From assembly GCA_004298505.1 (NCBI GenBank), contig SCRO01000120.1, positions 1-61,082 of the forward strand: a DNA stretch of 61,082 nt. The letters are read 5' to 3'. This document shows positions 4,196 to 39,663 of this stretch, one piece after another; position 1 is the first letter of the stretch, and every line of letters begins with the position of its first letter. Below the pieces are notes generated by a model. It ran no database searches. It was not told where the DNA came from and saw only the letters and a program-made list of their open reading frames with translations. Source of the stretch: Rhodanobacter sp. (lineage in GTDB: Bacteria > Pseudomonadota > Gammaproteobacteria > Xanthomonadales > Rhodanobacteraceae). A program made the position numbers and the translations under genes.

Positions 4196-4209
4196 TTGAT
4201 CGAAGTCAA
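4196..4209 (+). promoter_or_regulatory. FNR/ANR box of the nar operon
   Basis: TTGATCGAAGTCAA fits TTGAT-N4-GTCAA, nine of ten conserved bases of the FNR site. A TAGGCT hexamer at 4232-4237 sits where the -10 of a class II FNR promoter belongs, predicting a start near 4244 and a leader of about 70 bases before narG. The remainder of the 3957-4315 gap holds no gene I can support. Confidence 0.8.
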
Positions 4210-22044: not shown

Positions 22045-22058
22045 TTGACGAATATCAA
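22045..22058 (-). promoter_or_regulatory. FNR-like box ahead of the small ORF and narK
   Basis: Read on the plus strand it is TTGACGAATATCAA, so the minus-strand reading is TTGAT-N4-GTCAA, nine of ten conserved bases. A CAACAT hexamer (22023 down to 22018) lies at -10 spacing for a start near 22011, giving the class II centre at about -41. It faces the minus-strand small ORF and narK. Confidence 0.75.
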
Positions 22059-22360: not shown

Positions 22361-22374
22361 TTGATCTTCGTCAA
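22361..22374 (+). promoter_or_regulatory. FNR-like box upstream of nirK
   Basis: TTGATCTTCGTCAA matches TTGAT-N4-GTCAA, nine of ten conserved bases, about 180 bp before the nirK start. No convincing -10 is seen at class II spacing, so another promoter arrangement or a long leader is possible. The rest of the 22059-22551 gap contains no gene I can support. Confidence 0.7.
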
Positions 22375-26586: not shown

Positions 26587-26600
26587 TTGATTACAGTCAA
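26587..26600 (-). promoter_or_regulatory. FNR-like box upstream of the TDT channel
   Basis: TTGATTACAGTCAA on the plus strand matches nine of ten conserved FNR positions. On the minus strand a TACGCT hexamer (26564 down to 26559) sits at -10 spacing, giving a start near 26552 and the box centre at about -41. A CCACGCT/AGCGTGG stem at 26461-26484 would fall in the leader of this transcript. No other gene is seen in the 26409-26878 gap. Confidence 0.75.
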
Positions 26601-29495: not shown

Positions 29496-30272
29496 TCAAT
29501 CATAACCATGGGCTGCAATGATGCGCCGTGCCGCCGCGCTGCGCAGGTATCTCAGGAAGCCGATGGCGGCCGGATTCCCGCGGCCGTGATTCAGCAGCAC
29601 CGCGCTCTGGGTGATCGGCGGGTGCCAGCTGGCGGGAACCAGCCAGGACGAGCCGCCCATTTGCCGCTGCGCCTGCATTACCAGTGAACGCGGCAGCAGG
29701 CCCGCTTTGGCGTTGCCACTGATCACGAACTCGGTGGCCTGTCCCACGTTCTCGCCGAGCACCAGCCGTGGCTTGAGTGCGTCCCAGCGGCCGACGTGGC
29801 GCAGCACGGCGCGTGCGGCGGCGCCGTACGGCGCCAGCTCGGGGTTGGCGATCGCGAACTTGTGGAAGTCATGCTGGCGCAGTACGCGCTCGCCGTCGGT
29901 GATCAGCGTGGGGTCGCGGCTCCACAACACCAGCCGCCCGGTGGCGTAATCGTACAGCGACGAACGCACTGCCAGCCCCTCGTCGACCAGGCGCTGCGGC
30001 GTGGTGTTGTCCGCGGCAAGCAAGATATCGAACGGCGCACCATGGCGGATCTGCGCGTACAGTTTGCCGGTCGATGCGGCACTGATCTCGATGCGGCTGC
30101 CGCTCTGGTGCGCGTACTGGTCCGCCAGCAGGCGCGCCACTCGGGTGAAATTGGCGGCCACTGCCAGGCGTGCCTGCCCGGCCGGTGCCGCGGCGATGGC
30201 GACACGACTTGAAGGCCAGGCGAGCAGACCGACGATGGCCAGCAGGCTGAGTAGCAGGCGACGAAGTGGCAT
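29496..30272 (-). CDS. modA: Molybdate-binding periplasmic protein ModA
   Basis: A 258-aa substrate-binding protein. A Sec signal (MPLRRLLLSLLAIVGLLAWP, cleavage near AIA-AAP) leads into the ModA fold: LAVAANFTRVARLLADQY, ISAASTGKLYAQI and FDILLAADNTTPQ. The Ser in SAASTGK and the Tyr/Val positions fit an oxyanion site. GAGG precedes this ATG by eight bases; longer starts lie in the fnr end region. It starts 50 bp after the fnr stop on the same strand, so fnr and modABC may share a transcript. Confidence 0.92.
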   Translation of the reverse strand: MPLRRLLLSLLAIVGLLAWPSSRVAIAAAPAGQARLAVAANFTRVARLLADQYAHQSGSRIEISAASTGKLYAQIRHGAPFDILLAADNTTPQRLVDEGLAVRSSLYDYATGRLVLWSRDPTLITDGERVLRQHDFHKFAIANPELAPYGAAARAVLRHVGRWDALKPRLVLGENVGQATEFVISGNAKAGLLPRSLVMQAQRQMGGSSWLVPASWHPPITQSAVLLNHGRGNPAAIGFLRYLRSAAARRIIAAHGYD

Positions 30273-30322
30273 CCGGGGTCCTCGGGTTTGGGTTCGATCC
30301 GGCATCAACATGGCCGGCGGGT

Positions 30323-31105
30323 TCAGCCGGTGCCGCGACGTTTCGACGTGGACACGCTGCTGCTCCGGCACAGGTCAGCCAGCAGATCGGGACGCAGGAT
30401 GCGCACCGATTTGCGGTCGACCTCGAGTACGCCCATCTCCTTCATGCGCGAGAACAGGCGGCTGACCGTCTCGACGACTAAGCCAAGGTACTTGGCGATA
30501 TCGTAGCGTGACATCGGCAAGGTTAGCGTGATGGCGTCGCGCTGCAGGCGCTGGTATCGCTGGTATCGGTCGGTCAGGTTCTTCAGGAAGATGGCCAGTT
30601 GCTCCTGCGCCTGCTGCCGGCCCATCATCACCGTGTGGCGGTGCTCCTCGACCATCTCGCGGCTGATCACCCGCATCAATTGTCGATGCAATGCCGGCAC
30701 TTCGATGGCGACCTGCTGCAGCCGGGCATACGGCAGCTCGCAGATGCTGGAAGCTTCCAGCGCCTCGGCGTGGCTGACATGCCGGTCGGTGGCCAGCGCA
30801 TCGAATCCGACGATTTCCCCGGGCAGGTGGAAACCGAGGATCTGTACCTCGCCCGCCTCATTCAGGACGAAGGATTTCAGCGAACCGGAGCGCACCACGT
30901 AGAGCGCCTGCAAGCCATCACCGTCGCGGTACAGCATGCTGCCCTGGTCCAGCGCCCGCCTGTCCCTGACTGCGCTGTCCAGCCGTACCAGGTCGTCGCG
31001 ACCGATGCCAGCGGGCAGGCACAGCTCGTGCAATGCACAGGAGCCACAGCTTCGGCGCAACTGGTTCAGGTCGAGAATGTTCGCGTTGGACTCCATGGGA
31101 ACCAT
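30323..31105 (-). CDS. fnr: FNR/ANR-type oxygen-sensing regulator
   Basis: A 260-aa CRP/FNR activator. With the ATG at 31105, the cluster ligands fall at C20, C23, C29 and C122, exactly as in E. coli FNR, indicating a 4Fe-4S oxygen sensor. The helix-turn-helix near residue 210 has VVETVSRLFSRMKEM, whose E-x-x-S-R pattern is the FNR recognition helix for TTGAT half-sites. Those half-sites occur before at least seven genes in this window. It lies between the cyclitol/quinone-like operon and modA on the same strand. The 31106-31373 gap upstream should contain its promoter, but I see no clear FNR box there. Confidence 0.95.
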   Translation of the reverse strand: MVPMESNANILDLNQLRRSCGSCALHELCLPAGIGRDDLVRLDSAVRDRRALDQGSMLYRDGDGLQALYVVRSGSLKSFVLNEAGEVQILGFHLPGEIVGFDALATDRHVSHAEALEASSICELPYARLQQVAIEVPALHRQLMRVISREMVEEHRHTVMMGRQQAQEQLAIFLKNLTDRYQRYQRLQRDAITLTLPMSRYDIAKYLGLVVETVSRLFSRMKEMGVLEVDRKSVRILRPDLLADLCRSSSVSTSKRRGTG

Positions 31106-31373
31106 CTACAGGTGGGGAACGGCTCCGCCAGGGCAGTCTGCCGTTGAATCTGCATCGATTGAACTTAGCACGGAAGTCTGCTTCAGCACGCCGCCGCCAG
31201 TGCGGCACAACCGCGCAGGGCGCTTGGCAGGGAATGCTTCGAACGCAACCACGGGCAACCCGCTGCGTCATGCACCGCGCGCGCTCGGTCATGCGCGACG
31301 CAAACGCGGCAGGCGAGCCATGTGCATGACTGCGGCCCGCATGCCGCTGCCTGACTGGATCAGTCGCCGACGG

Positions 31374-32282
31374 CTACTGCCAGGATGCCGGCATCAACAC
31401 AAAGATCGCGATCAGCGCCAGCTGCACCAGCGGGTAGTAGCTGGCGCGATCGAACAGGCGGGCGGCCTGACGGCTTGCGCCTGAGCGCAGCAGTTGAAGC
31501 CCTGGCCACAAGAGCAGGAATACGCCGGCCAGGGCACTGGGGATCAGGTAGGGCAGGCCCAGCTTCAGTGGCGACATCCGGGGCAGGAACAAGCTGGTGA
31601 TGACGGCCAGGGTCAAACTGACGACGACCAGCCAGCCGGCGCCGCGCGGGCCGAAGACGAGCGGAATCGTGCGCGCGCCGATGCCGCGATCCTCCTCGAT
31701 GTCGTTCCAGTCCGCCGGGATGTTCTGTCCGCCGATTTCCCACAGCATGATCCATGCCACCAGCACGCCGAGCAGCGGCAGCGAAGGATCGGGCTGGACC
31801 ACGAACACCGCAGCGACCGGTCCGCACGACTTCACCAGCCCGCTGACCAGGGTGCGCCAGTAGGTCACCTTCAGCAGCATGCAGTAGGCCACTTCCAGCA
31901 CGGCGGCGGCCAGTACGACGAACACGATCGGGGGGTTGATCAGCCAGGCACCGATCAGGGTCAGCACATACCAGAACCCGAACCAGGCCAGTCCGCTGCG
32001 CACGCTGAGCAGTTTCTGTGCCAGCGGATAGCGCAGCGCGCTGGCTTCCACCGAATAGCCCGCATTGATGCCGGCGACAGCGAATTTCTCCTGATCGGCC
32101 TTGACGCCTACCAGGTCATTCAGGGCGTAGATCGCGGTGTAGCCCGCGACCGCGGTGAACAGCGACAGCGCCAGTACCGGCCAGGCCGGGACGGTGCCCA
32201 GCCACAGCAGGGCAGCAAAGCCGGGCAGGGCCACGTCGAGGACGCCATGGGTGGAGCGGGACAGGGCGAGGAATCGGCGCAT
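31374..32282 (-). CDS. UbiA-family prenyltransferase
   Basis: A 302-aa membrane protein of the UbiA superfamily with about eight or nine helices. The first Asp motif reads NDLVGVKAD, an NDxxDxxxD variant with Gly in the middle position. The second is DWNDIEEDRGIGARTIP, keeping the Asp residues and the following G-x-x-T. Such enzymes attach polyprenyl chains to aromatic or other acceptors within the membrane. It is the last gene of a five-gene coupled operon and starts five bases after the UbiG-like stop. Acceptor and prenyl chain are unknown; it is unlikely to be the housekeeping ubiA, given this context and the altered motif. Confidence 0.82.
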   Translation of the reverse strand: MRRFLALSRSTHGVLDVALPGFAALLWLGTVPAWPVLALSLFTAVAGYTAIYALNDLVGVKADQEKFAVAGINAGYSVEASALRYPLAQKLLSVRSGLAWFGFWYVLTLIGAWLINPPIVFVVLAAAVLEVAYCMLLKVTYWRTLVSGLVKSCGPVAAVFVVQPDPSLPLLGVLVAWIMLWEIGGQNIPADWNDIEEDRGIGARTIPLVFGPRGAGWLVVVSLTLAVITSLFLPRMSPLKLGLPYLIPSALAGVFLLLWPGLQLLRSGASRQAARLFDRASYYPLVQLALIAIFVLMPASWQ

Positions 32283-32287
32283 TGGGC

Positions 32288-33013
32288 TCAGCTCTTTTTG
32301 ACGAAGGAGGCCATGTAGTTGACATCTTCACGGCCGGCATCGACCCGGAAGCGGCGCGTCAGCGGGTTGTACATCAAGCTGGCGATGCCGGTGAATTCCA
32401 GCCCGGCGGCGCGCGCCCACTCGCGCAGTTCGCGCGGTCGGATCAGCTTGCGGTAGCTGTGCGTGCCGCGCGGCAGCAGGCGCAACACATACTCGCCGCC
32501 GATGATGGCGAACGCGAACGCCTTGGGGGTGCGGTTGATGGTCGAGAAGATCGCCCGCCCGCCGGGCTTGAGCGCGCGTGCGCAAGCGGCAATCACCTGG
32601 GCCGGATCGGGCACGTGTTCGAGCATTTCCATGCAGGTCACGACGTCGAAGCTGCCAGCCTGCTCCTGCGCGAGCTGCTCGGCATTCTGGTAGCGGTAAT
32701 CGATCGCCAGGCCATGCGCGCTGGCATGCTTGCGGGCGACCTCCAGCGACAGCTCGGACAGGTCGATGCCGGTTGCCTCGGCGCCGGTTTTCGCCAGGGC
32801 TTCGGTCAGAATGCCGCCGCCGCAGCCGACGTCGACGACGCGCGGAGGGGGCGTGTCGATCTGCGGCGCAGCCATCTGCTGCAGGATGAACTTCAGGCGC
32901 AGCGGGTTGATCGTGTGCAGCATGCCCATCTTGCCGTGGGCGTCCCACCACAGTTTGGACACGCGGTCGAACTTGGTGATTTCCTGGGCGTCAGCATTCG
33001 AGAACTGGGTCAT
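32288..33013 (-). CDS. UbiG-like SAM-dependent O-methyltransferase
   Basis: A 241-aa class I methyltransferase very like UbiG: KFDRVSKLWWDAHGKMGMLH at the N-terminus, SAM motif VVDVGCGGGILTEALAKTG, and YNPLTRRFRVDAGREDVNYM at the C-terminus. UbiG methylates the ring hydroxyls of ubiquinone precursors. The gene start overlaps the end of the cyclase gene by 23 bases, and the UbiA-like gene follows after five, so it belongs to this operon. It could be the cell's only ubiG, or a paralogue for a different product; sequence here cannot decide. Frame is open to 33079, but MTQFSNADAQEI is the family start. Confidence 0.85.
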   Translation of the reverse strand: MTQFSNADAQEITKFDRVSKLWWDAHGKMGMLHTINPLRLKFILQQMAAPQIDTPPPRVVDVGCGGGILTEALAKTGAEATGIDLSELSLEVARKHASAHGLAIDYRYQNAEQLAQEQAGSFDVVTCMEMLEHVPDPAQVIAACARALKPGGRAIFSTINRTPKAFAFAIIGGEYVLRLLPRGTHSYRKLIRPRELREWARAAGLEFTGIASLMYNPLTRRFRVDAGREDVNYMASFVKKS

Positions 33014-34139
33014 GTTGCCTGGATGTCCGTGCGATGAGCGATTCGATGGAAGCGGTGATTTCGGCCGGGTTGATGTCATTGACGAAAACGCAATGGCCGA
33101 GTCCGTCCGGGAGTGGCACCCGTTGCCAGCCGTTGCGGTGTTCGATCCGGTCCAGCAACGAGTGCCACATCAGGTCGGTGTCCAGCACGCCGGTGTCCAG
33201 GGTGATCCCCAGCGCGGCAATCAATGCAAACACCCGCTCGACTTCCACGGCGTCGAGTAGCCCCCGGCGCCGGGCGATCAGCACCGAAACGGCGATGTCG
33301 AGCAGCACTGCCTCGCCGTGCAGCAGGCGCTCCTCGTGGTGTGTCTCGAGCCCGTAGCTGAAGGTGTGGCCGAAATCCACGTTGCGCGCCAGCTCGTTCT
33401 CGAACAGGTTCGGTTGCAGTTCCTCCAGCATGCCGGAGATGGCGCGGTCGAGAATCCTGCCGCCGTGATCGCTCTGGAAACAGCTGGCGATACTGTCGGT
33501 GCCATGCTGTTCGAGTTGTTCGAACAGGGCGACATCCTTGATTACCGCCAGCTTGATGATCTCGCACACGCCGTTGAGGATGTGCCGGTGCGGCAAGGTG
33601 GTCAGGAATGCGCGGTCGAGCAGCACCTGCCGCGGCGCTTCGAAGCTGCCCAGACGGTTCTTGTGGCGGTTGAAATTGACGCCGGTCTTGATGCCCACCG
33701 AGGCGTCGACGTAGCCCATCAGCGTGGTGGGCACCTTGATGTGCGGCATGCCACGGCGGTAGCTACTGGCGACGAAGCCGACCACGTCGGTCAGCACGCC
33801 GCCGCCGATGGCGATGATCGGTTCATCCCGGCGGTGGATCGGGAAGGCGTCCAGTTCATGCAGGATGCCCAGCCAGGCATCCATCGTCTTGGCCGCCTCG
33901 CCACCGGGAAAGCGTACGATCCGGGCCTCGATCCCATGCTGTGCGAAATAGGTATCGAGCGCGGCAGAGCAATGCTGCGCGACATGCTCGTCGACCACGA
34001 CGAAGCGGCGTCCGGGGTTGCTACGGCCGGACGACAGCAGGGCGGGGTTGCCGGGGTCGAGCAGATCGGGCGCGCTAAGGATGTCGTATTCGATCCGGCG
34101 CCGGTGGCTGACATGCCAGCGGGTGGCGGCGTGGGTCAT
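32991..34139 (-). CDS. Sugar phosphate cyclase, sedoheptulose-7-phosphate cyclase-like
   Basis: A 382-aa member of the dehydroquinate synthase superfamily. NAD-binding GGGVLTDVVGF and the Zn ligands E193, H258 and H274 are in place. Several features favour the sedoheptulose-7-phosphate cyclase branch (2-epi-5-epi-valiolone synthase and relatives) over AroB: GGEAAKTMDAWLGILHELD, KTGVNFNRHKNRLGSFEAP, and FGHTFSYGLE where AroB has GHTFGHAIE. The product would be a C7 cyclitol, but substrate choice needs testing. It overlaps luxS by four bases and the UbiG-like gene by 23. Confidence 0.82.
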   Translation of the reverse strand: MTHAATRWHVSHRRRIEYDILSAPDLLDPGNPALLSSGRSNPGRRFVVVDEHVAQHCSAALDTYFAQHGIEARIVRFPGGEAAKTMDAWLGILHELDAFPIHRRDEPIIAIGGGVLTDVVGFVASSYRRGMPHIKVPTTLMGYVDASVGIKTGVNFNRHKNRLGSFEAPRQVLLDRAFLTTLPHRHILNGVCEIIKLAVIKDVALFEQLEQHGTDSIASCFQSDHGGRILDRAISGMLEELQPNLFENELARNVDFGHTFSYGLETHHEERLLHGEAVLLDIAVSVLIARRRGLLDAVEVERVFALIAALGITLDTGVLDTDLMWHSLLDRIEHRNGWQRVPLPDGLGHCVFVNDINPAEITASIESLIARTSRQHDPVLEC

Positions 34140-34618
34140 ACCGCCTCCAGCCAGTGCGCCCTTGCCTGCAGCAGCTGCCGGGCTACCTCGCGCGCCAATT
34201 CCAGGTCGTGGTTCTGGTAGTGGCCGCACTGGTCGATGCGCTGATACGGTACGCCGGGCGCAGCGAGTACCTCGGTCAGGATGCTTGCCAACGTGTCGCA
34301 CAGGACTTCGCTGCGCCCCTCGTTGAGGAAGATCAGGTAGAAGCCGGTCTGGCAGCCCATGACGCCCACCGAGATGAAACTCTCCGGCAGGTAGCGCTGG
34401 AAGCCTTCCAGCAGGAAGTGCTCCAGCGAGTGCAGCTCCGTGGTGGACAGGTAGTGCCCGGCGTTCGGCACGCACACGCGCAAGTCCACGCAATAGACCA
34501 CATCACCGTGCCGACCCGTGCGCGCCGAGCGCAGTTTCACGCGGGGTGCCTTGAGCAGGCGATGATCAAGTTCGCCGACCAGCTGCGGATCCCAGCCCAG
34601 TTCTGTTAGTGCAATCAT
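34136..34618 (-). CDS. luxS: S-ribosylhomocysteine lyase LuxS
   Basis: A 160-aa LuxS. The metal ligands H63 and H67 (HSLEH) and C131 (QCGHYQNHD), catalytic E66 and C89 (MGCQTGFY), substrate-side R47 (VDLRVC) and H19 (ELDH) are all conserved, so the enzyme should be active. It cleaves S-ribosylhomocysteine to homocysteine and DPD, the autoinducer-2 precursor. It is translationally coupled to both neighbours (TGATG with the TIM-barrel gene, ATGA with the cyclase), which is not a usual luxS context. It may recycle SAH from the UbiG-like methyltransferase or act on a related sugar. Confidence 0.9.
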   Translation of the reverse strand: MIALTELGWDPQLVGELDHRLLKAPRVKLRSARTGRHGDVVYCVDLRVCVPNAGHYLSTTELHSLEHFLLEGFQRYLPESFISVGVMGCQTGFYLIFLNEGRSEVLCDTLASILTEVLAAPGVPYQRIDQCGHYQNHDLELAREVARQLLQARAHWLEAV

Positions 34619-35898
34619 CAGCGGCCTCCGGCGGTCAGTCGTGCCTGTTCGCCCGGCGCGACCGTGAATGCGCTCAGGTGCCGATAGCTGTCGGCGAGCG
34701 CCTTCTCCCACGAGGCGACATGGTGGTACAGCTCGACGGCGCCGTAACCGGAGAAGCCGTGGTCGGTGAGGGCCCGGAAACTGGCCGCGAAGTCCAGGGT
34801 TCCCTCGCCGGGTATTTCGTGGAAGTGCACGACGCCGGTCAGCGTGTTGGCCACCATCCGCTCGACCAGCGGTGGGTTCCGGGCCCCGCGCAAGTACGCA
34901 ATGATCGGCCGGGCCCGCTCCAGCACATCGAAACTCAGGCCGGGCACGGAAATCAGATAGGTGAAGATCTCGTCGTCCAGCGGCGAGCCGCCGGCATACA
35001 GGCTGGCGTAATCCACCCACGTCACCGCCTGGTCCACGCCGGCGCGTTGCAGCAGGGTGTCGATGCGTCGCCGTTGCGCGGGGTTCGCCGGCTCGTCGCT
35101 GAAATACAGCGGATGCGCCGCGTCCAGCAGCAAGTAGTCGGCGGTTTGCGGAAAGTAGACCAGGGTGCTGGCAAATCCCAGGTCGAAGGCCAGCTCGTCG
35201 GCGTCGCTGACAATTTTCAGGTTGTAGCCCTGGCGCGTGTCCGAAATGTGCAGGTAGCGCGTCAGCGGGGCGGCCCGGGCCAGTGCCGCGATGTAGTCGG
35301 GCTCGGAGCAGTACGCGTGACACAGGTCGACGTGCAGCCGGAAATGTGGCGAGTCGATTTCGTTGATCAGCGCCAGGCCGTCGTCGATCGTCTCGATCAG
35401 CATGCCCGGTTCGGGCTCGATCAGCAGCGTGATGTCCTCGTCGGGGCGGATCTCGCGCAGGCATTGCCGGATGCTGTCCAGCAGCAGGGCGTGCGGGTCG
35501 ATCGAAGGGTTGCTGACGTGCTCGGCGCGGATGAAACCGCTGCCGAAGGTGACCAGCGACACGCCCAGCTGGCGCGCGACGTGGATTCCGCGCTTGACCA
35601 GGTCGATGCGGCGTTTGCGCCCGGCCAGGTCCGGATCCATCAACGAGGGTTCATGTGGCCGCAGCGGGTCGAAGAAGTGCGAGGCGGTGGCGACGCAGGC
35701 GCCTTTCACCCCGGCCGTGGCCAGACGCTGCCTGACCGTGGCCAGATAGTCGTCGCCGAGGTCGAACGGATTGAACTGATCGCGGTGGAAGGAGATCTCG
35801 ATACCTTCGTAACCGGTGGCAGCGACGACGTCGATGGCCGCCAGAAAGTCCAGATTGGTCAGACCAAACGTGCTGTAACTGAGTTGTACTTTGCCCAT
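34618..35898 (-). CDS. Xylose-isomerase-like TIM-barrel protein with a large insertion
   Basis: A 426-aa protein of the sugar phosphate isomerase/epimerase fold. Recognisable metal-site strands are LLIEPEPG (E161), LHVDLCHAYC (D191, H194), RYLHISDT (H217), VHFHEIPGEG (about residue 361) and GAVELYHH (E389). An insert of about 130 residues (about 223-353) separates strand 6 from the usual next element, so the protein is far longer than the family's roughly 280 aa. It is the first gene of the five-gene operon. An aldose-ketose isomerisation or epimerisation feeding the cyclase is plausible. The EboE protein of ebo clusters is a comparable partner of an AroB-like and a UbiA-like protein. Confidence 0.8.
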   Translation of the reverse strand: MGKVQLSYSTFGLTNLDFLAAIDVVAATGYEGIEISFHRDQFNPFDLGDDYLATVRQRLATAGVKGACVATASHFFDPLRPHEPSLMDPDLAGRKRRIDLVKRGIHVARQLGVSLVTFGSGFIRAEHVSNPSIDPHALLLDSIRQCLREIRPDEDITLLIEPEPGMLIETIDDGLALINEIDSPHFRLHVDLCHAYCSEPDYIAALARAAPLTRYLHISDTRQGYNLKIVSDADELAFDLGFASTLVYFPQTADYLLLDAAHPLYFSDEPANPAQRRRIDTLLQRAGVDQAVTWVDYASLYAGGSPLDDEIFTYLISVPGLSFDVLERARPIIAYLRGARNPPLVERMVANTLTGVVHFHEIPGEGTLDFAASFRALTDHGFSGYGAVELYHHVASWEKALADSYRHLSAFTVAPGEQARLTAGGR

Positions 35899-35935
35899 GA
35901 CTGCTCAATCTCAGTGTCCGTGCTTGCTGGCACAG

Positions 35936-35970
35936 GAAAGGGCCACCAGGAAAAGCCTGGCGGCCCTTTC
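35936..35970 (-). terminator. Strong hairpin between norB and the five-gene operon
   Basis: GAAAGGGCC-x-CCAGG pairs with CCTGG-x-GGCCCTTTC around a 5-base loop: 14 pairs with one mismatch, 43 bp after the norB stop. There is no long T-run. It ends only about 37 bp before the next start codon, leaving little room for an independent promoter, so it may be a partial terminator or attenuator. Confidence 0.6.
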
Positions 35971-36012
35971 GATTATCGCCTGTCATGCCCCGGACGGATA
36001 GACCTCAGCCTC

Positions 36013-37710
36013 TCAGGCTTGCGCCGGCAGGATTCGCAACAGCGACGTGGCATCGCTCATGCTCCCGCGCGCCTCCAGCGAGGCCAGGAAGCGCCACACA
36101 AACCCGATCGTCACCAGAAACAGCCCCGGATAACCCACGCCAGCGAGCAGATAGGGCAGGGTCGGGTCACCCACCACGCGTACGCGCGGCAGGTTGAAGC
36201 TGAGCAGGCTGAGCGTGATCATGAATCCGAAGACCCACATGCCCATCAACCAGATACCTGATTCGAACCCGGTGAGCGGGCGATGCCAGCCGGTGGCATC
36301 GCGAGGTGCTGCGGTATCGGCATGGGTCGTGTCGGCCGGAACCTGGATTCGCCGCCCCAGTGTGAACAAGTCATAGGCCAGGATGCCGGCACCTGTGGCA
36401 AAGACCAGGCCAAACATCGGCAGCAGCAGCTTGTAGACGTTCATCGCCGGCGAGACGTCGCCGCCGAACCAGTCCAGCCCGAGCACGCGGTAGACGTAGA
36501 CCTGCACGGTGCCGCCGATCGAGAACGCGAACGCCATGCCGAGTACGCCGATAAACACCAGCCAGAAGCCGAGCTTGCCCAGGCGTTGGTCGTAGTTCGG
36601 CACCTTGCGCATGATCGGGATGGCGTAATAGGCGGCGGCAATACCCAGCATGCCGAAGGTGCCAAACAGCGCCAGATGCGCGTGCCCGGCCGTGATCCAG
36701 GTGCCATGCGACCACACGTTGGTAAGTGCAAAGGTCATCACGAAACCGAGGATGCCCGCGCCGACCAGCTCCAGCACCGTCGAGCCCAGGATAAAATAAA
36801 ACGCCGGCGCATTTTCCAGTGGGCGCTTGTTGGTGTGGGCGTCCAGGTAGATGTGCCAGAAGCAGAACACCAGCGGCAGCGGCTCCAGTGCACTGAACAG
36901 CGAGCCCCAGAACTGCCAGAACTCCGGCGTGCCGATCCAGAAATAGTGGTGTGCGTTGCCGATCAGCCCGGACAGCCACACCAGCGTGATGCCCCAGAAC
37001 ACCGCAAAGCCCACCGACTTGATGTCGGCCTTGAACATCAGCACAAGGAACATGCCGATCAGGCTGATGTGGATGACCTCCCACACGCCCTCTACCCAGT
37101 AGTGCACCACAAACCAGCGGAAGTATTCCTGCAGGTCCAGCCGCTGTATGTAGAACAGGCCGAACACCCACACCACCATCAGTGCGGTAAAGCCCAGGCC
37201 GAGGCCCCAGTGCACCTCGTTCCACTCGCGTACCGGCGGGAACGTGCGCAGTACCACGAAACACATGATGGCGAAGCCGACGAGAATCAGGATGCCGGCA
37301 ATCCGCCCGGCCTCCAGGTACTCCAGCCCCTGCTGCAGCCAGGGCTGCCCCAGCCACCAGCCGGCGATGCCGCGTTCGGCCAGGAACTGGGTGAAGAAGT
37401 TCCACACCACGATCACGATCACCGCGTAGAACAGGAACTTGATCAGCCAGGGCGTGACCATCTCGCGCTTCGACAGCAATGGCCCGACAAACAGCATCGC
37501 GCCGATGAAGCCGCACACGATCCACATGATGCCGAGGTTGAGATGCTCGGCGCGGGCGACGTTGAAGTTCAGTATGCCCACGAGCAAGCTCGGGTCGACT
37601 TGCTGCGCCGCCAGGATCAAGCCGTCCGCGACCTGGGCCATGAACAGCACCAGCATCAGCATGAAGAAGCGCAGGCTCAGCCGTTGGGTCTGGTATTCAA
37701 TCTGCATCAC
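36013..37710 (-). CDS. norB: Nitric oxide reductase catalytic subunit, NorB-like, extended
   Basis: Heme-copper-superfamily NO reductase subunit, 565 aa, reducing NO to N2O. Residues line up with Pseudomonas NorB at a constant offset of four: H56, H343 and H345 for hemes; H203, H254 and H255 plus E207 for the non-heme FeB; and E276 in SALEPLP. The motif HYWVEGVWE identifies a true NOR rather than an oxidase. It is about 100 residues longer than usual, with a hydrophilic segment (about 455-490) and two extra C-terminal membrane helices. Its start overlaps the norC stop (ATGA). Confidence 0.9.
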   Translation of the reverse strand: MMQIEYQTQRLSLRFFMLMLVLFMAQVADGLILAAQQVDPSLLVGILNFNVARAEHLNLGIMWIVCGFIGAMLFVGPLLSKREMVTPWLIKFLFYAVIVIVVWNFFTQFLAERGIAGWWLGQPWLQQGLEYLEAGRIAGILILVGFAIMCFVVLRTFPPVREWNEVHWGLGLGFTALMVVWVFGLFYIQRLDLQEYFRWFVVHYWVEGVWEVIHISLIGMFLVLMFKADIKSVGFAVFWGITLVWLSGLIGNAHHYFWIGTPEFWQFWGSLFSALEPLPLVFCFWHIYLDAHTNKRPLENAPAFYFILGSTVLELVGAGILGFVMTFALTNVWSHGTWITAGHAHLALFGTFGMLGIAAAYYAIPIMRKVPNYDQRLGKLGFWLVFIGVLGMAFAFSIGGTVQVYVYRVLGLDWFGGDVSPAMNVYKLLLPMFGLVFATGAGILAYDLFTLGRRIQVPADTTHADTAAPRDATGWHRPLTGFESGIWLMGMWVFGFMITLSLLSFNLPRVRVVGDPTLPYLLAGVGYPGLFLVTIGFVWRFLASLEARGSMSDATSLLRILPAQA

Positions 37711-38666
37711 TGCTTCTCCAAGGTGTGGAGGTAGGCGACGATCGCGTTGACGTCGTCTTCCTTCAACAAGGTGCCATAGGCAGGCATGACGCTGGCCGGA
37801 TAGCCCGCCACGATCTTTGCGTTGGGGTGAAGGATCGATTCGCGCAGGTACGCGTCGTCGGCGCTGACCGTGCTGCCGTCGGCAAGGCTGACCTTCGAGT
37901 TGTACAGGCCGCCCCAGCCGGGACCGACCAGGCGTTTGTCATCGGTCGCGTGACAGGCGAGGCAACCGTTGTCCTTGACCAGCTGCGCGCCGTACGCTGC
38001 GGGGTCGACCTTGGTCGGCTCCGGCGCTGCTGCCGCAGGCGCCGCCGCAGCCAAAGCGGCGCTGCCGTGGGCAAGCTGCAGGCGATGATCGAGCCCTTGC
38101 ACTTCCACTTTCGGCGGCCAGCCCTCGGTGTTCATCGCCGAGGTGTACTTGAGATAGGCGATCAGCTGGCCGATCTCGTCCTTGCTCAGTGGTAGGTTCG
38201 GCATCATGGTGGTCTTGCCACCGCGTCGCTCGATTTGTACCGCCGCGACCGGGAATTTCTTCAGGTAGGCGTCGATCGAGTCGGTGCCGGTGTCGGCGCG
38301 CTGATCGGGATCGAGCAGTTGGGCACGGACTGCGCCGGTAGTCGGCCAACCGCCCGCCGACGGCAGGAAGGCCGCGAGCCATGCCGGTCCCACGCGCTTG
38401 TATTCGCCGGTCAGATCCGGGCCCAGGTAGGCACCGTTGCCGACCATGGTGTGGCAGCCCATGCAGTTGTAGGCCTGAAACACCCGCTTGCCCTCGTTCG
38501 CGGTGTACTTGCCATAGGTGATCGTGTACGGCGTCGCCTGGCCGCGCGATTTCATGAACGAAAAGATCGACAGCGCGATGAAGATCGCCGTCATCACCGC
38601 CAGCATCACCAACGCGCCGCGCCGGCGTGGCGTCTCGCAGCTGCTGCCGCCCACTCCGCAACTCAT
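37707..38666 (-). CDS. norC: NorC-like subunit with a second cytochrome c domain
   Basis: A 319-aa membrane-anchored cytochrome. One N-terminal helix (about residues 17-38) is followed by a NorC domain with heme motif C68-x-x-C71-H72 and the NorC-like EGWPPKVE. An Ala/Pro-rich linker (about 203-216) leads to a second cytochrome c domain with C235-x-x-C238-H239 and likely axial Met in SVMPAYG. Canonical NorC is about 150 aa with a single heme. The second domain resembles the c domains fused to oxidase subunit II and may receive electrons from periplasmic donors. Confidence 0.88.
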   Translation of the reverse strand: MSCGVGGSSCETPRRRGALVMLAVMTAIFIALSIFSFMKSRGQATPYTITYGKYTANEGKRVFQAYNCMGCHTMVGNGAYLGPDLTGEYKRVGPAWLAAFLPSAGGWPTTGAVRAQLLDPDQRADTGTDSIDAYLKKFPVAAVQIERRGGKTTMMPNLPLSKDEIGQLIAYLKYTSAMNTEGWPPKVEVQGLDHRLQLAHGSAALAAAAPAAAAPEPTKVDPAAYGAQLVKDNGCLACHATDDKRLVGPGWGGLYNSKVSLADGSTVSADDAYLRESILHPNAKIVAGYPASVMPAYGTLLKEDDVNAIVAYLHTLEKQ

Positions 38667-38932
38667 GAGCGTTCCCCTTTGTTGGCGGCCGGACCCGGGT
38701 CGGTCGTGGCCGCCGCGGCTTCCTCGTTACCATGCAGAAACAGGATGTGCAGGCTGCCGATGAAGACATAGAACACGTAGACCGCCAGCACGAAGCCGAG
38801 CACGAAATAAATCCACCACGCCACGTGCGATGTGGGCCAGTACGCAAAATCGCGCCAGAATGGCCAGGACAACAGGAACGCTGCCACGCTGGCCAGCACT
38901 GAAAGCGTCAGGTCCGTGATTCGTTGCGACAT
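38663..38932 (-). CDS. Small two-helix membrane protein of the nor operon
   Basis: An 89-aa protein with two hydrophobic segments (about residues 9-25 and 37-64) and a hydrophilic Ala/Pro-rich tail. AGGGG lies seven bases before this ATG; the open frame upstream belongs to a nuclease remnant. Its stop overlaps the NorC start (ATGA), so it is the first gene of a three-gene nor operon. No family is recognised with certainty. By position and topology it may be an accessory or assembly subunit of the NO reductase, comparable to small extra subunits in other NOR operons. Confidence 0.75.
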   Translation of the reverse strand: MSQRITDLTLSVLASVAAFLLSWPFWRDFAYWPTSHVAWWIYFVLGFVLAVYVFYVFIGSLHILFLHGNEEAAAATTDPGPAANKGERS

Positions 38933-39052
38933 GCGATTTCCCCTGAGGTTGGTTCGAGCACTACCGGGAAGTATCGAGAACCACCGAATCCCTTCCCCAA
39001 AGGATTCGCGTGTAATGCGCCTCGACTCTAGTGGGCCGGCGGCCGCGGCGAT

Positions 39053-39066
39053 CTGATCCAGGTCAA
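39053..39066 (-). promoter_or_regulatory. FNR-like box and promoter of the nor operon
   Basis: On the minus strand this reads TTGACCTGGATCAG, eight of ten conserved bases of the FNR consensus. A TAGAGT hexamer (39030 down to 39025) lies at exact -10 spacing, putting the box centre at about -41 relative to a start near 39018. The leader to the small membrane protein gene would be about 86 bases. Confidence 0.7.
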
Positions 39067-39094
39067 GCCGAACCATCTTTTCGGTGCGCCCGCT

Positions 39095-39323
39095 GGCGTG
39101 TCGGCACGAGTCGACGATGCGTCGCGCCAGGGTGCCCTCGGCGGCGTAGCCGACAAACACCACGCTGCAGCGTTCACGCCACAGGTTGTGCTTCAAGTGG
39201 TGACGTACGCGACCGCCGTTGCACATGCGGTGGGATCGCGCCGCTGCGGATGCCGCGATGCAGGTAGTACAGGATTTTCTGGGTGCGCTCCAGCGCGAAG
39301 CTGGGGATCACCACGTTGCCGCC
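39095..39323 (-). pseudogene. Remnant of a beta-CASP metallo-beta-lactamase-fold nuclease, internally deleted
   Basis: From 39323 downward one frame reads GGNVVIPSFALERTQKILYY...IPP, a beta-CASP segment of RNA-processing MBL-fold proteins. It joins at about 39226, in a different frame, MCNGGRVRHHLKHNLWRERC and VVFVGYAAEGTLARRIVD, which in intact relatives lies roughly 80-100 residues further on. Both ends and the middle are missing, so this is a dead fragment. It now contributes the nor promoter region. Confidence 0.82.
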
Positions 39324-39393
39324 TTAAGACTCACATAAGCCGTCGGGGTTGCAATGGCACCCAAGGCAATCATGCCGATACCGAAGAAGCACC

Positions 39394-39663
39394 GTGAAAC
39401 CCGCACTCATCGCACCCTTGTTGCTTGCCGCCGCCTTGTCGGCACCCGTCTTCGCCTCACCACAATGCAACACTGCGTTGCGCGCACAGTGGCTGACCGA
39501 GGCGGCGATGAAGCAGCAGGTTCTCGACCAGGGTTACACCTTCAAGGTGTTCCAGGTCACCGGCAACTGCTACGAGATCTACGGCAAGGACAAGGCCGGC
39601 AAGAACGTCGAGATCTACTTCGACCCGACCGATGGCCGCATCGTCAAGAAGAAGGGCGGCTGA
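39394..39663 (+). CDS. Periplasmic PepSY-domain protein
   Basis: An 89-aa secreted protein. A signal peptide (VKPALIAPLLLAAALSAPVF, cleavage near VFA-SPQ) precedes a PepSY_2-type domain ending in YFDPTDGRIVKKKGG. Two Cys residues (PQCNTAL and GNCYEIY) may form a disulfide. The start is taken as the GTG at 39394; an upstream ATG at 39349 would place the signal peptide internally. PepSY proteins of this size are commonly paired with a cytochrome b561 and a QseBC-type two-component system, as here. Confidence 0.8.
   Translation: MKPALIAPLLLAAALSAPVFASPQCNTALRAQWLTEAAMKQQVLDQGYTFKVFQVTGNCYEIYGKDKAGKNVEIYFDPTDGRIVKKKGG

Follow-up and report, generated by a model that had tools for sequence, protein, structure and literature searches.

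A five-gene cassette encoding LuxS-, cyclase-, UbiG- and UbiA-type proteins, and the prenylated C7-cyclitol-derived lipid that it may make

A five-gene cassette shared by members of four phyla

The window analysed here is a stretch of 61,082 nucleotides from Rhodanobacter sp. (contig SCRO01000120.1, positions 1 to 61,082, of assembly GCA_004298505.1, which comprises 3.78 Mb in 139 contigs and is 99.59% complete). At positions 31374-35898 five minus-strand genes, hereafter the cassette, abut or overlap within 4.5 kb:

34618-35898, minus strand: TIM-barrel sugar isomerase/epimerase/lyase-like protein, 426 amino acids, first gene of the cassette (PF01261, 126 bits)
34136-34618, minus strand: LuxS-family metalloenzyme, 160 amino acids (PF02664, 105 bits)
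32991-34139, minus strand: sugar-phosphate cyclase resembling 2-epi-5-epi-valiolone synthase (EEVS), 382 amino acids (profile match to the EEVS ValA; own clade)
32288-33013, minus strand: UbiG-type O-methyltransferase (TIGR01983, 260 bits; cassette-specific clade)
31374-32282, minus strand: UbiA-superfamily membrane prenyltransferase (PF01040, 87 bits)

The TIM-barrel and LuxS genes overlap by 1 base, the LuxS and cyclase genes by 4 bases (ATGA) and the cyclase and UbiG genes by 23 bases, and a 5-base gap separates UbiG from UbiA. The 23-base overlap results from an in-frame ATG at 33013, and the list of open reading frames (ORFs) offers an alternative upstream ATG at 33079. The coordinates, overlaps and gap on which the initial annotation had based a single unit were all reproduced, and Pfam assigns the five proteins to AP_endonuc_2, LuxS, DHQ_synthase, a methyltransferase family and UbiA. 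Equivalog level in NCBIfam is reached only by the methyltransferase (UbiG). An Rfam scan of the window gave no match.

Searching 149 related genomes with LuxS identified 11 carriers including the window's own, and all ten others possess the five genes in identical order at about 58-80% identity. For a wider view, an alignment of the TIM-barrel protein was scanned against 84,980 species, each represented by one genome; 109 stretches matched, 85 of which are relatives, and the best 80 of these 85 are the 80 loci referred to throughout. As they were retrieved via the TIM-barrel gene, the counts report co-occurrence given that gene. All five genes lie on one strand and in one order in 73 of the 80 loci, a count that includes L050, whose UbiA match covers 46 residues at a contig end, and L051, where the cyclase is matched best by a partial piece. 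Of the seven incomplete loci, six (L065, L068, L069, L075, L084 and L110) stop at a contig end. The hosts are Anaerolineae/Chloroflexi, Gamma- and Betaproteobacteria, Mycobacterium szulgai, M. simulans and one Eremiobacterota metagenome-assembled genome (MAG), in which the cassette sits on a 5.3 kb contig. The cassette is therefore real and widely conserved, across members of four phyla, and the co-occurrence of the five families in other genomes, proposed initially as a check, is borne out by both genome sets.

The five genes also share their history to a large extent. Distance matrices correlate for all ten gene pairs (rho 0.65-0.84, 76 non-redundant rows), the largest value among 200 permutations being 0.13. 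When the joined proteins (71 rows) are placed in a tree rooted at its midpoint, three phylum changes are required, with the mycobacteria inside the Chloroflexi clade, Eremiobacterota among Proteobacteria and the window's row beside the Chloroflexi clade. In a plasmid search, no record reached 80% query coverage for the TIM-barrel protein, UbiA had no match, and the matches of LuxS and the cyclase were all below 60% identity; matches in a phage search with LuxS alone were likewise all below 60% identity.

Enzyme families encoded by the cassette

The cyclase profile aligns at 398 bits to 4p53, at 299 bits to 5tpr and at 183 bits to the best dehydroquinate synthase. The 5tpr protein is a 2-epi-valiolone synthase that the database lists as a 3-dehydroquinate synthase. 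Entry 4p53 is named as the EEVS ValA in the consulted portion of PMC4426668. Against the aroB equivalog TIGR01357 the cassette protein scores 222 bits, below the cut-off of 305. In a tree of 34 rows, which carries a long-branch warning, the 21 chosen cassette cyclases form one clade, and a fork with support 100/99 places this clade with EEVS and desmethyl-4-deoxygadusol synthase (DDGS) on one side, and EboD, AroB and one other row on the other. Across the 82 cassette rows used for all residue counts, Glu193, His258 and His274, presumably the metal ligands, are invariant; position 262 is Tyr in 78 rows and His in 4, and is Pro in EEVS/DDGS (two EEVS compared) and His in AroB and EboD.

A canonical aroB (352-370 bits) accompanies the cassette cyclase in all ten other related carriers, and the ten non-carrier relatives tested have canonical aroB only. 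We therefore reject an AroB identity for the cyclase, given also its score below the TIGR01357 cut-off and its separate clade. Judged by profile and tree, it is a clade beside the C7-cyclitol synthases (EEVS), neither AroB nor EboD, which upholds the C7-type assignment made initially. A cyclase that grouped inside AroB in a genome with no other aroB had been named as the case against this assignment. The cyclase lies outside AroB, whereas a canonical aroB was indeed not found in the window's own assembly, although present in all 20 other relatives tested; an assembly gap and a true loss are both possible.

The cassette methyltransferase exceeds the TIGR01983 cut-off of 103 bits by a wide margin. 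A second UbiG of the window genome, on contig C6, is 49% identical to the cassette copy, and the latter shares 45-54% identity with 15 UbiG copies from outside the cassette. Every one of the 30 carriers searched has UbiG over the cut-off, 15 with two copies and 15 with one. Two-copy carriers are all proteobacterial, and the single-copy carriers are 11 Chloroflexi, 2 mycobacteria, HdN1 and one Dokdonella MAG, their sole copy belonging to the cassette clade. Chloroflexi and mycobacteria make menaquinone and are not known to make ubiquinone. The gamma proteobacterium HdN1 (L098) is a proteobacterium whose sole over-cut-off UbiG is the cassette copy. Rows for a UbiG tree were sorted in advance according to how closely they match the window's copy; in this tree the 30 rows of the cassette clade, identical ones among them, separate from the 15 other UbiG rows with support 100/99.

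In UbiA the residues of the Asp-rich motifs NDxxGxxxD and DWNDxEED are conserved in 80-82 of the 82 rows, whereas the score against the 4-hydroxybenzoate model is 31.8 bits, with a cut-off of 275. A sequence search of the PDB with UbiA gave no match; the nearest folds to its predicted model (pLDDT 77) are archaeal digeranylgeranylglyceryl phosphate (DGGGP) synthase and UbiA homologues. By its Pfam fold and both Asp-rich motifs, this protein is a UbiA-superfamily prenyltransferase; the window genome has three genes of that superfamily, this one included. For the TIM-barrel protein, the AlphaFold model (pLDDT 91.6) has ketose 3-epimerases as its nearest solved folds; 2-hydroxy-3-keto-glucal hydratase (8ro4) ranks 14th and the 3-dehydroshikimate dehydratase AsbF 47th. 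Glu161, Asp191 and His217 are found in 82 of 82 rows and Glu389 in 81 (one gap), and by analogy with the family these four are candidate metal ligands.

LuxS proteins are best known for by-product recycling in the methyl cycle and for the signal molecule AI-2. The cassette member reaches 111 bits against the NCBIfam LuxS equivalog, below the cut-off of 158. In all 82 rows, which were assembled with no motif filter for LuxS, the zinc ligands His63, His67 and Cys131 and the catalytic Glu66 and Cys89 are kept, as are His19 and Arg47. By contrast, canonical Ser6 is kept in 5 rows, Pro81 in 7, and Phe7, Ala61, Asp78 and Ser80 in none; the comparison is with six canonical sequences, five of which hold the canonical residue at three of these six positions. 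We take the six residues to line the homocysteine pocket of canonical LuxS. Pfs, the producer of S-ribosylhomocysteine, scores over the cut-off for 7 of 30 carriers and has no match in the window's genome, whereas SahH is over the cut-off in all 30. As Pfs is mostly below the cut-off, SahH universal and the canonical positions changed, cassette LuxS probably acts on the cyclitol and not on S-ribosylhomocysteine, and the simplest reading is that it would keep LuxS chemistry on another ketose. The cleavage of S-ribosylhomocysteine assumed initially is hence not supported here, and a role as methyl-cycle enzyme is disfavoured on the same grounds.

A proposed product and its rivals

A prenylated, methylated cyclitol or quinone-like membrane compound, as put forward in the initial annotation, is likely the product class, being the natural reading of the five families, and we are fairly confident that some lipid of this kind, prenylated, methylated and derived from a C7 cyclitol, is made by the cassette. 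Our more specific proposal is tentative and falls somewhat short of an even chance: an aromatic, quinol-like, prenylated and O-methylated lipid with a ring from sedoheptulose 7-phosphate, made by an oxygen-independent route.

Starting from the observed linkage, families, catalytic residues, cyclase and UbiG clades and Pfs counts, we infer the individual chemical steps, the aromatization and the redox role as follows. The EEVS-like cyclase would convert sedoheptulose 7-phosphate, with loss of the phosphate, into C7H12O6, a C7 cyclitol ketone. Two metalloenzymes, the LuxS-like protein and the TIM barrel, would then move the ketone and remove two waters to yield a phenol of the trihydroxybenzyl-alcohol type, C7H8O4; LuxS would apply its ketone-shift and β-elimination chemistry to the ring in place of S-ribosylhomocysteine, and the TIM barrel could serve as epimerase or dehydratase. 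UbiA would attach a polyprenyl chain, and UbiG, much as it does on the way to ubiquinone, would methylate a hydroxyl of the catechol type. The resulting benzoquinol/benzoquinone would have no chorismate origin, and none of the steps would need O2. In its boldest form, which we regard as rather unlikely, this proposal would make the product a respiratory or redox quinone. Neither chorismate nor O2 would be needed for its benzenoid ring, which would stem from sedoheptulose 7-phosphate by means of a LuxS neofunctionalized for ring ketone shift and dehydration, and the compound may be the main quinone in some Anaerolineae with no UbiE/MenG over the cut-off.

These Anaerolineae emerged from a search for UbiE/MenG in 39 carriers. 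Eight lack an intact over-cut-off match: in G153 the gene is present as two adjacent pieces, and the other seven are cassette-bearing Anaerolineae with no match over the cut-off (L066, L073, L082, L090, L092, L102 and L106), which have 5-10 UbiA-superfamily matches each. Ten proteins were scanned from two MenG-less genomes, G179 and G189; heme O synthase is over the cut-off in both and the cassette UbiA is present, and G179 has in addition a decaprenyl-phosphate phosphoribosyltransferase. Four Anaerolineae stretches have, near the cassette, genes for a prenyltransferase resembling MenA and a methyltransferase resembling UbiE, both below the NCBIfam cut-offs where scored:

L074, 5333-11889: MenA-like and UbiE-like pair
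L075, 2326-4195: MenA-like and UbiE-like pair
L090, 12591-14532: MenA-like and UbiE-like pair
L106, 8489-10456: MenA-like and UbiE-like pair

Several observations weigh against an aromatic, quinol-like product. UbiE/MenG is over the cut-off in the remaining 31 of the 39 carriers, so that most carriers probably make a known quinone. G179 and G189 contain MenA-like paralogues below the cut-off, and the MenG-less Anaerolineae MAGs may be incomplete, hence menaquinone loss is only a possibility. Given the private residue at position 262, the cyclase product may not be 2-epi-5-epi-valiolone. Pfs is weakly matched in 15 of the 23 carriers below its cut-off, so that 22 of 30 show some match, and in G168 a match near the cut-off is split into two pieces. 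One locus of the 80, L101, has no UbiG. The genes flanking the cassette are variable. At the clustering used, the commonest family among 83 stretches is an ABC-transporter ATPase, not a redox gene; it occurs in 10 of them, nearer or farther from the cassette, and no family exceeds this count. With such varied flanks the cassette looks self-contained.

Further such points lend themselves to the main rival, a non-aromatic prenylated cyclitol lipid with an ether or C-prenyl linkage and no quinol, in which LuxS and the TIM barrel would just isomerize or epimerize the C7 cyclitol, UbiA would O-prenylate it and UbiG would O-methylate it. The prenyl acceptor of DGGGP synthase is a polyol and not an aromatic ring, and the UbiA model is closest to the archaeal enzyme (6m31 and 7bpu, TM about 0.73-0.79); epimerases head the TIM-barrel fold list, with dehydratases lower. 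A precedent is in print, since the consulted portion of PMC5133447 postulates an isoprenoid-cyclitol as the product of the ebo cluster. The closeness of cassette UbiG to true UbiG, in score as well as in identity, speaks against this rival, as the known substrates of UbiG are polyprenyl phenols and quinols, and we consider a non-aromatic lipid a serious but on balance unlikely explanation. The ebo cluster has also inspired the idea of a lipid carrier or exported compound with no respiratory role, following the carrier model for ebo in scytonemin export (PMC6282210, consulted in part). The cassette shares three broad enzyme classes with EboC, EboD and EboE, the cyclase profile is clearly homologous to that of EboD (hhalign probability 100, a homology of shared superfamily only), and the ABC-transporter ATPase is, as noted, the commonest neighbour. 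Yet EboA, EboB and EboF are not among the five genes, UbiA matches EboC with an hhalign probability of 1.5% (both profiles shallow), the TIM barrel aligns with EboE over 59 columns only and the cyclase clade is not that of EboD, all of which makes a carrier or export function improbable.

Two explanations within known metabolism appear weaker. A methyl-cycle accessory, with LuxS and UbiG engaged in recycling of the S-adenosylmethionine by-product and the other neighbours coincidental, would fit the fully kept catalytic residues of LuxS, the use of S-adenosylmethionine by UbiG and the seven carriers with Pfs over the cut-off, but conflicts with the Pfs and SahH counts of the other carriers, the lack of a Pfs match in the window genome, the altered LuxS positions and a five-gene linkage that spans phyla; we deem it very improbable. 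An auxiliary route into ordinary ubiquinone, suggested by the UbiG and UbiA families and the two UbiG copies in half of the carriers searched, is scarcely credible in view of the separate clade of cassette UbiG, its status as sole over-cut-off copy in Chloroflexi and mycobacteria, and the weak match of UbiA to the 4-hydroxybenzoate model.

If the aromatic, quinol-like reading is true, LuxS has a biosynthetic role beyond the methyl cycle and AI-2, and a LuxS annotation ceases to imply AI-2 in bacteria with the cassette. It is held that the rings of the major isoprenoid quinones derive from chorismate or tyrosine; with a sugar-derived quinol, an electron carrier would have a new origin. Its octaprenyl form would be C48H72O4 (hand calculation), the formula of demethyl-ubiquinone-8, and could be missed in mass spectra. 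According to the consulted portion of PMC13386864, many Chloroflexota have no known quinone pathways and further quinones may await discovery, a gap that the cassette could help to explain. At 4.5 kb it is compact enough to be moved and tested as one construct.

Upstream region and comparison with known systems

The gene upstream of the cassette in the window encodes a cytochrome-type NorB relative, which matches 4xyd at 217 bits, and a hairpin separates this gene from the cassette:

35936-35970, minus strand: perfect hairpin of 15 bp in the interval from norB to the cassette, which may act as a terminator or attenuator (folding compared with shuffles)

The region has a z-score of -4.65 and none of 200 shuffles folds as well, although a terminator scan of 30200-39400 did not call this hairpin. 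Hairpins of similar strength occur in 8 of 83 upstream regions, the window included, and the other seven differ in sequence. A tblastn search with the window's norB (E 1e-10) found none in the other 90 stretches, namely the 80 loci and the 10 relatives, with some genomes shared and mostly up to about 8 kb on each side. An operon of norB and cassette is accordingly not supported. FNR-type boxes lie within 350 bases upstream of the cassette in 8 of 81 regions, with 0.075 expected from single-base shuffles; in a density comparison, 8 of the 22 FNR-type boxes of the 80 loci are upstream of the cassette. The other 73 of the 81 regions, the window's own among them, have none. These boxes hint at anaerobic control of the cassette in part of the set. 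The norB argument for the suggested link to denitrification is therefore weak, norB having been seen upstream only at this locus and behind a hairpin, although the FNR-type boxes lend some backing to anaerobic control.

FNR-family genes match in 4 of the 80 loci, as does hemN, and in the window an FNR-family gene is located about 270 bases past UbiA. The window as a whole contains five FNR-type palindromes, with 0.07 expected (26587-26600, 22045-22058, 22361-22374, 4196-4209 and 208-221); that at 26587 lies where a SLAC1-family channel gene is listed to start. The ORF at 38663-39226 begins with 37 residues of a Beta-Casp domain, followed by an apparent small membrane protein; these residues are probably what is left of the end of a truncated gene, joined to the membrane protein by a start codon called too early.

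No description of the cassette as a system was found in the openly accessible literature, subscription papers being mostly outside that search. The initial statement that no pathway with these genes has been described holds to this extent, but the gene list itself is in print: in the consulted portion of PMC8756737, Table A1 tabulates the same five genes, with no function proposed, as neighbours of nirS in the Chloroflexi SURF MAG 42, one listed gene from nirS by protein numbering.

Among known systems, the ebo cluster (eboA-F) likewise brings together UbiA-superfamily, sugar-phosphate cyclase and xylose-isomerase-like TIM-barrel genes. The cassette differs in the absence of EboA, EboB and EboF, in the presence of LuxS and UbiG, in a cyclase clade other than EboD and in the weak matches of its UbiA and TIM barrel to EboC and EboE. 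We therefore reject an ebo identity, and cyclase tree, profile comparisons and gene content agree with the distinction from ebo drawn at the outset. An EboC-type enzyme farnesylates quinolines, as reported in the consulted portion of PMC9235831. A Streptomyces plasmid (L131) carries an ebo-like cluster that includes a gene for inositol-3-phosphate synthase but no EboD within the stretch shown, a gene content that hints that the ebo ring, too, may be a cyclitol.

The biosynthesis of BE-40644 in Actinoplanes, as described in the same portion of PMC5133447, is a precedent for our proposal in its EEVS-type ring, a dehydration and a presumed farnesylation by a UbiA-superfamily enzyme; it concerns an actinobacterial secondary metabolite, with LuxS and UbiG unmentioned there, whereas the cassette occurs in members of four phyla. 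With the ubiquinone pathway the cassette shares ring prenylation and O-methylation as reaction types and a UbiG that passes the equivalog cut-off. In contrast to that pathway, its ring source is apparently a sugar-phosphate cyclase and not chorismate, its UbiA is not the 4-hydroxybenzoate enzyme, and it is present in genomes with no other over-cut-off UbiG. Finally, the cassette LuxS has the fold family, zinc ligands and catalytic Cys and Glu of the LuxS/AI-2 pathway, but differs from it in its other canonical positions and in the accompanying genes, with Pfs below the cut-off in 23 of 30 carriers and SahH in all, and the LuxS of all ten relatives found by the LuxS search is borne by the cassette.

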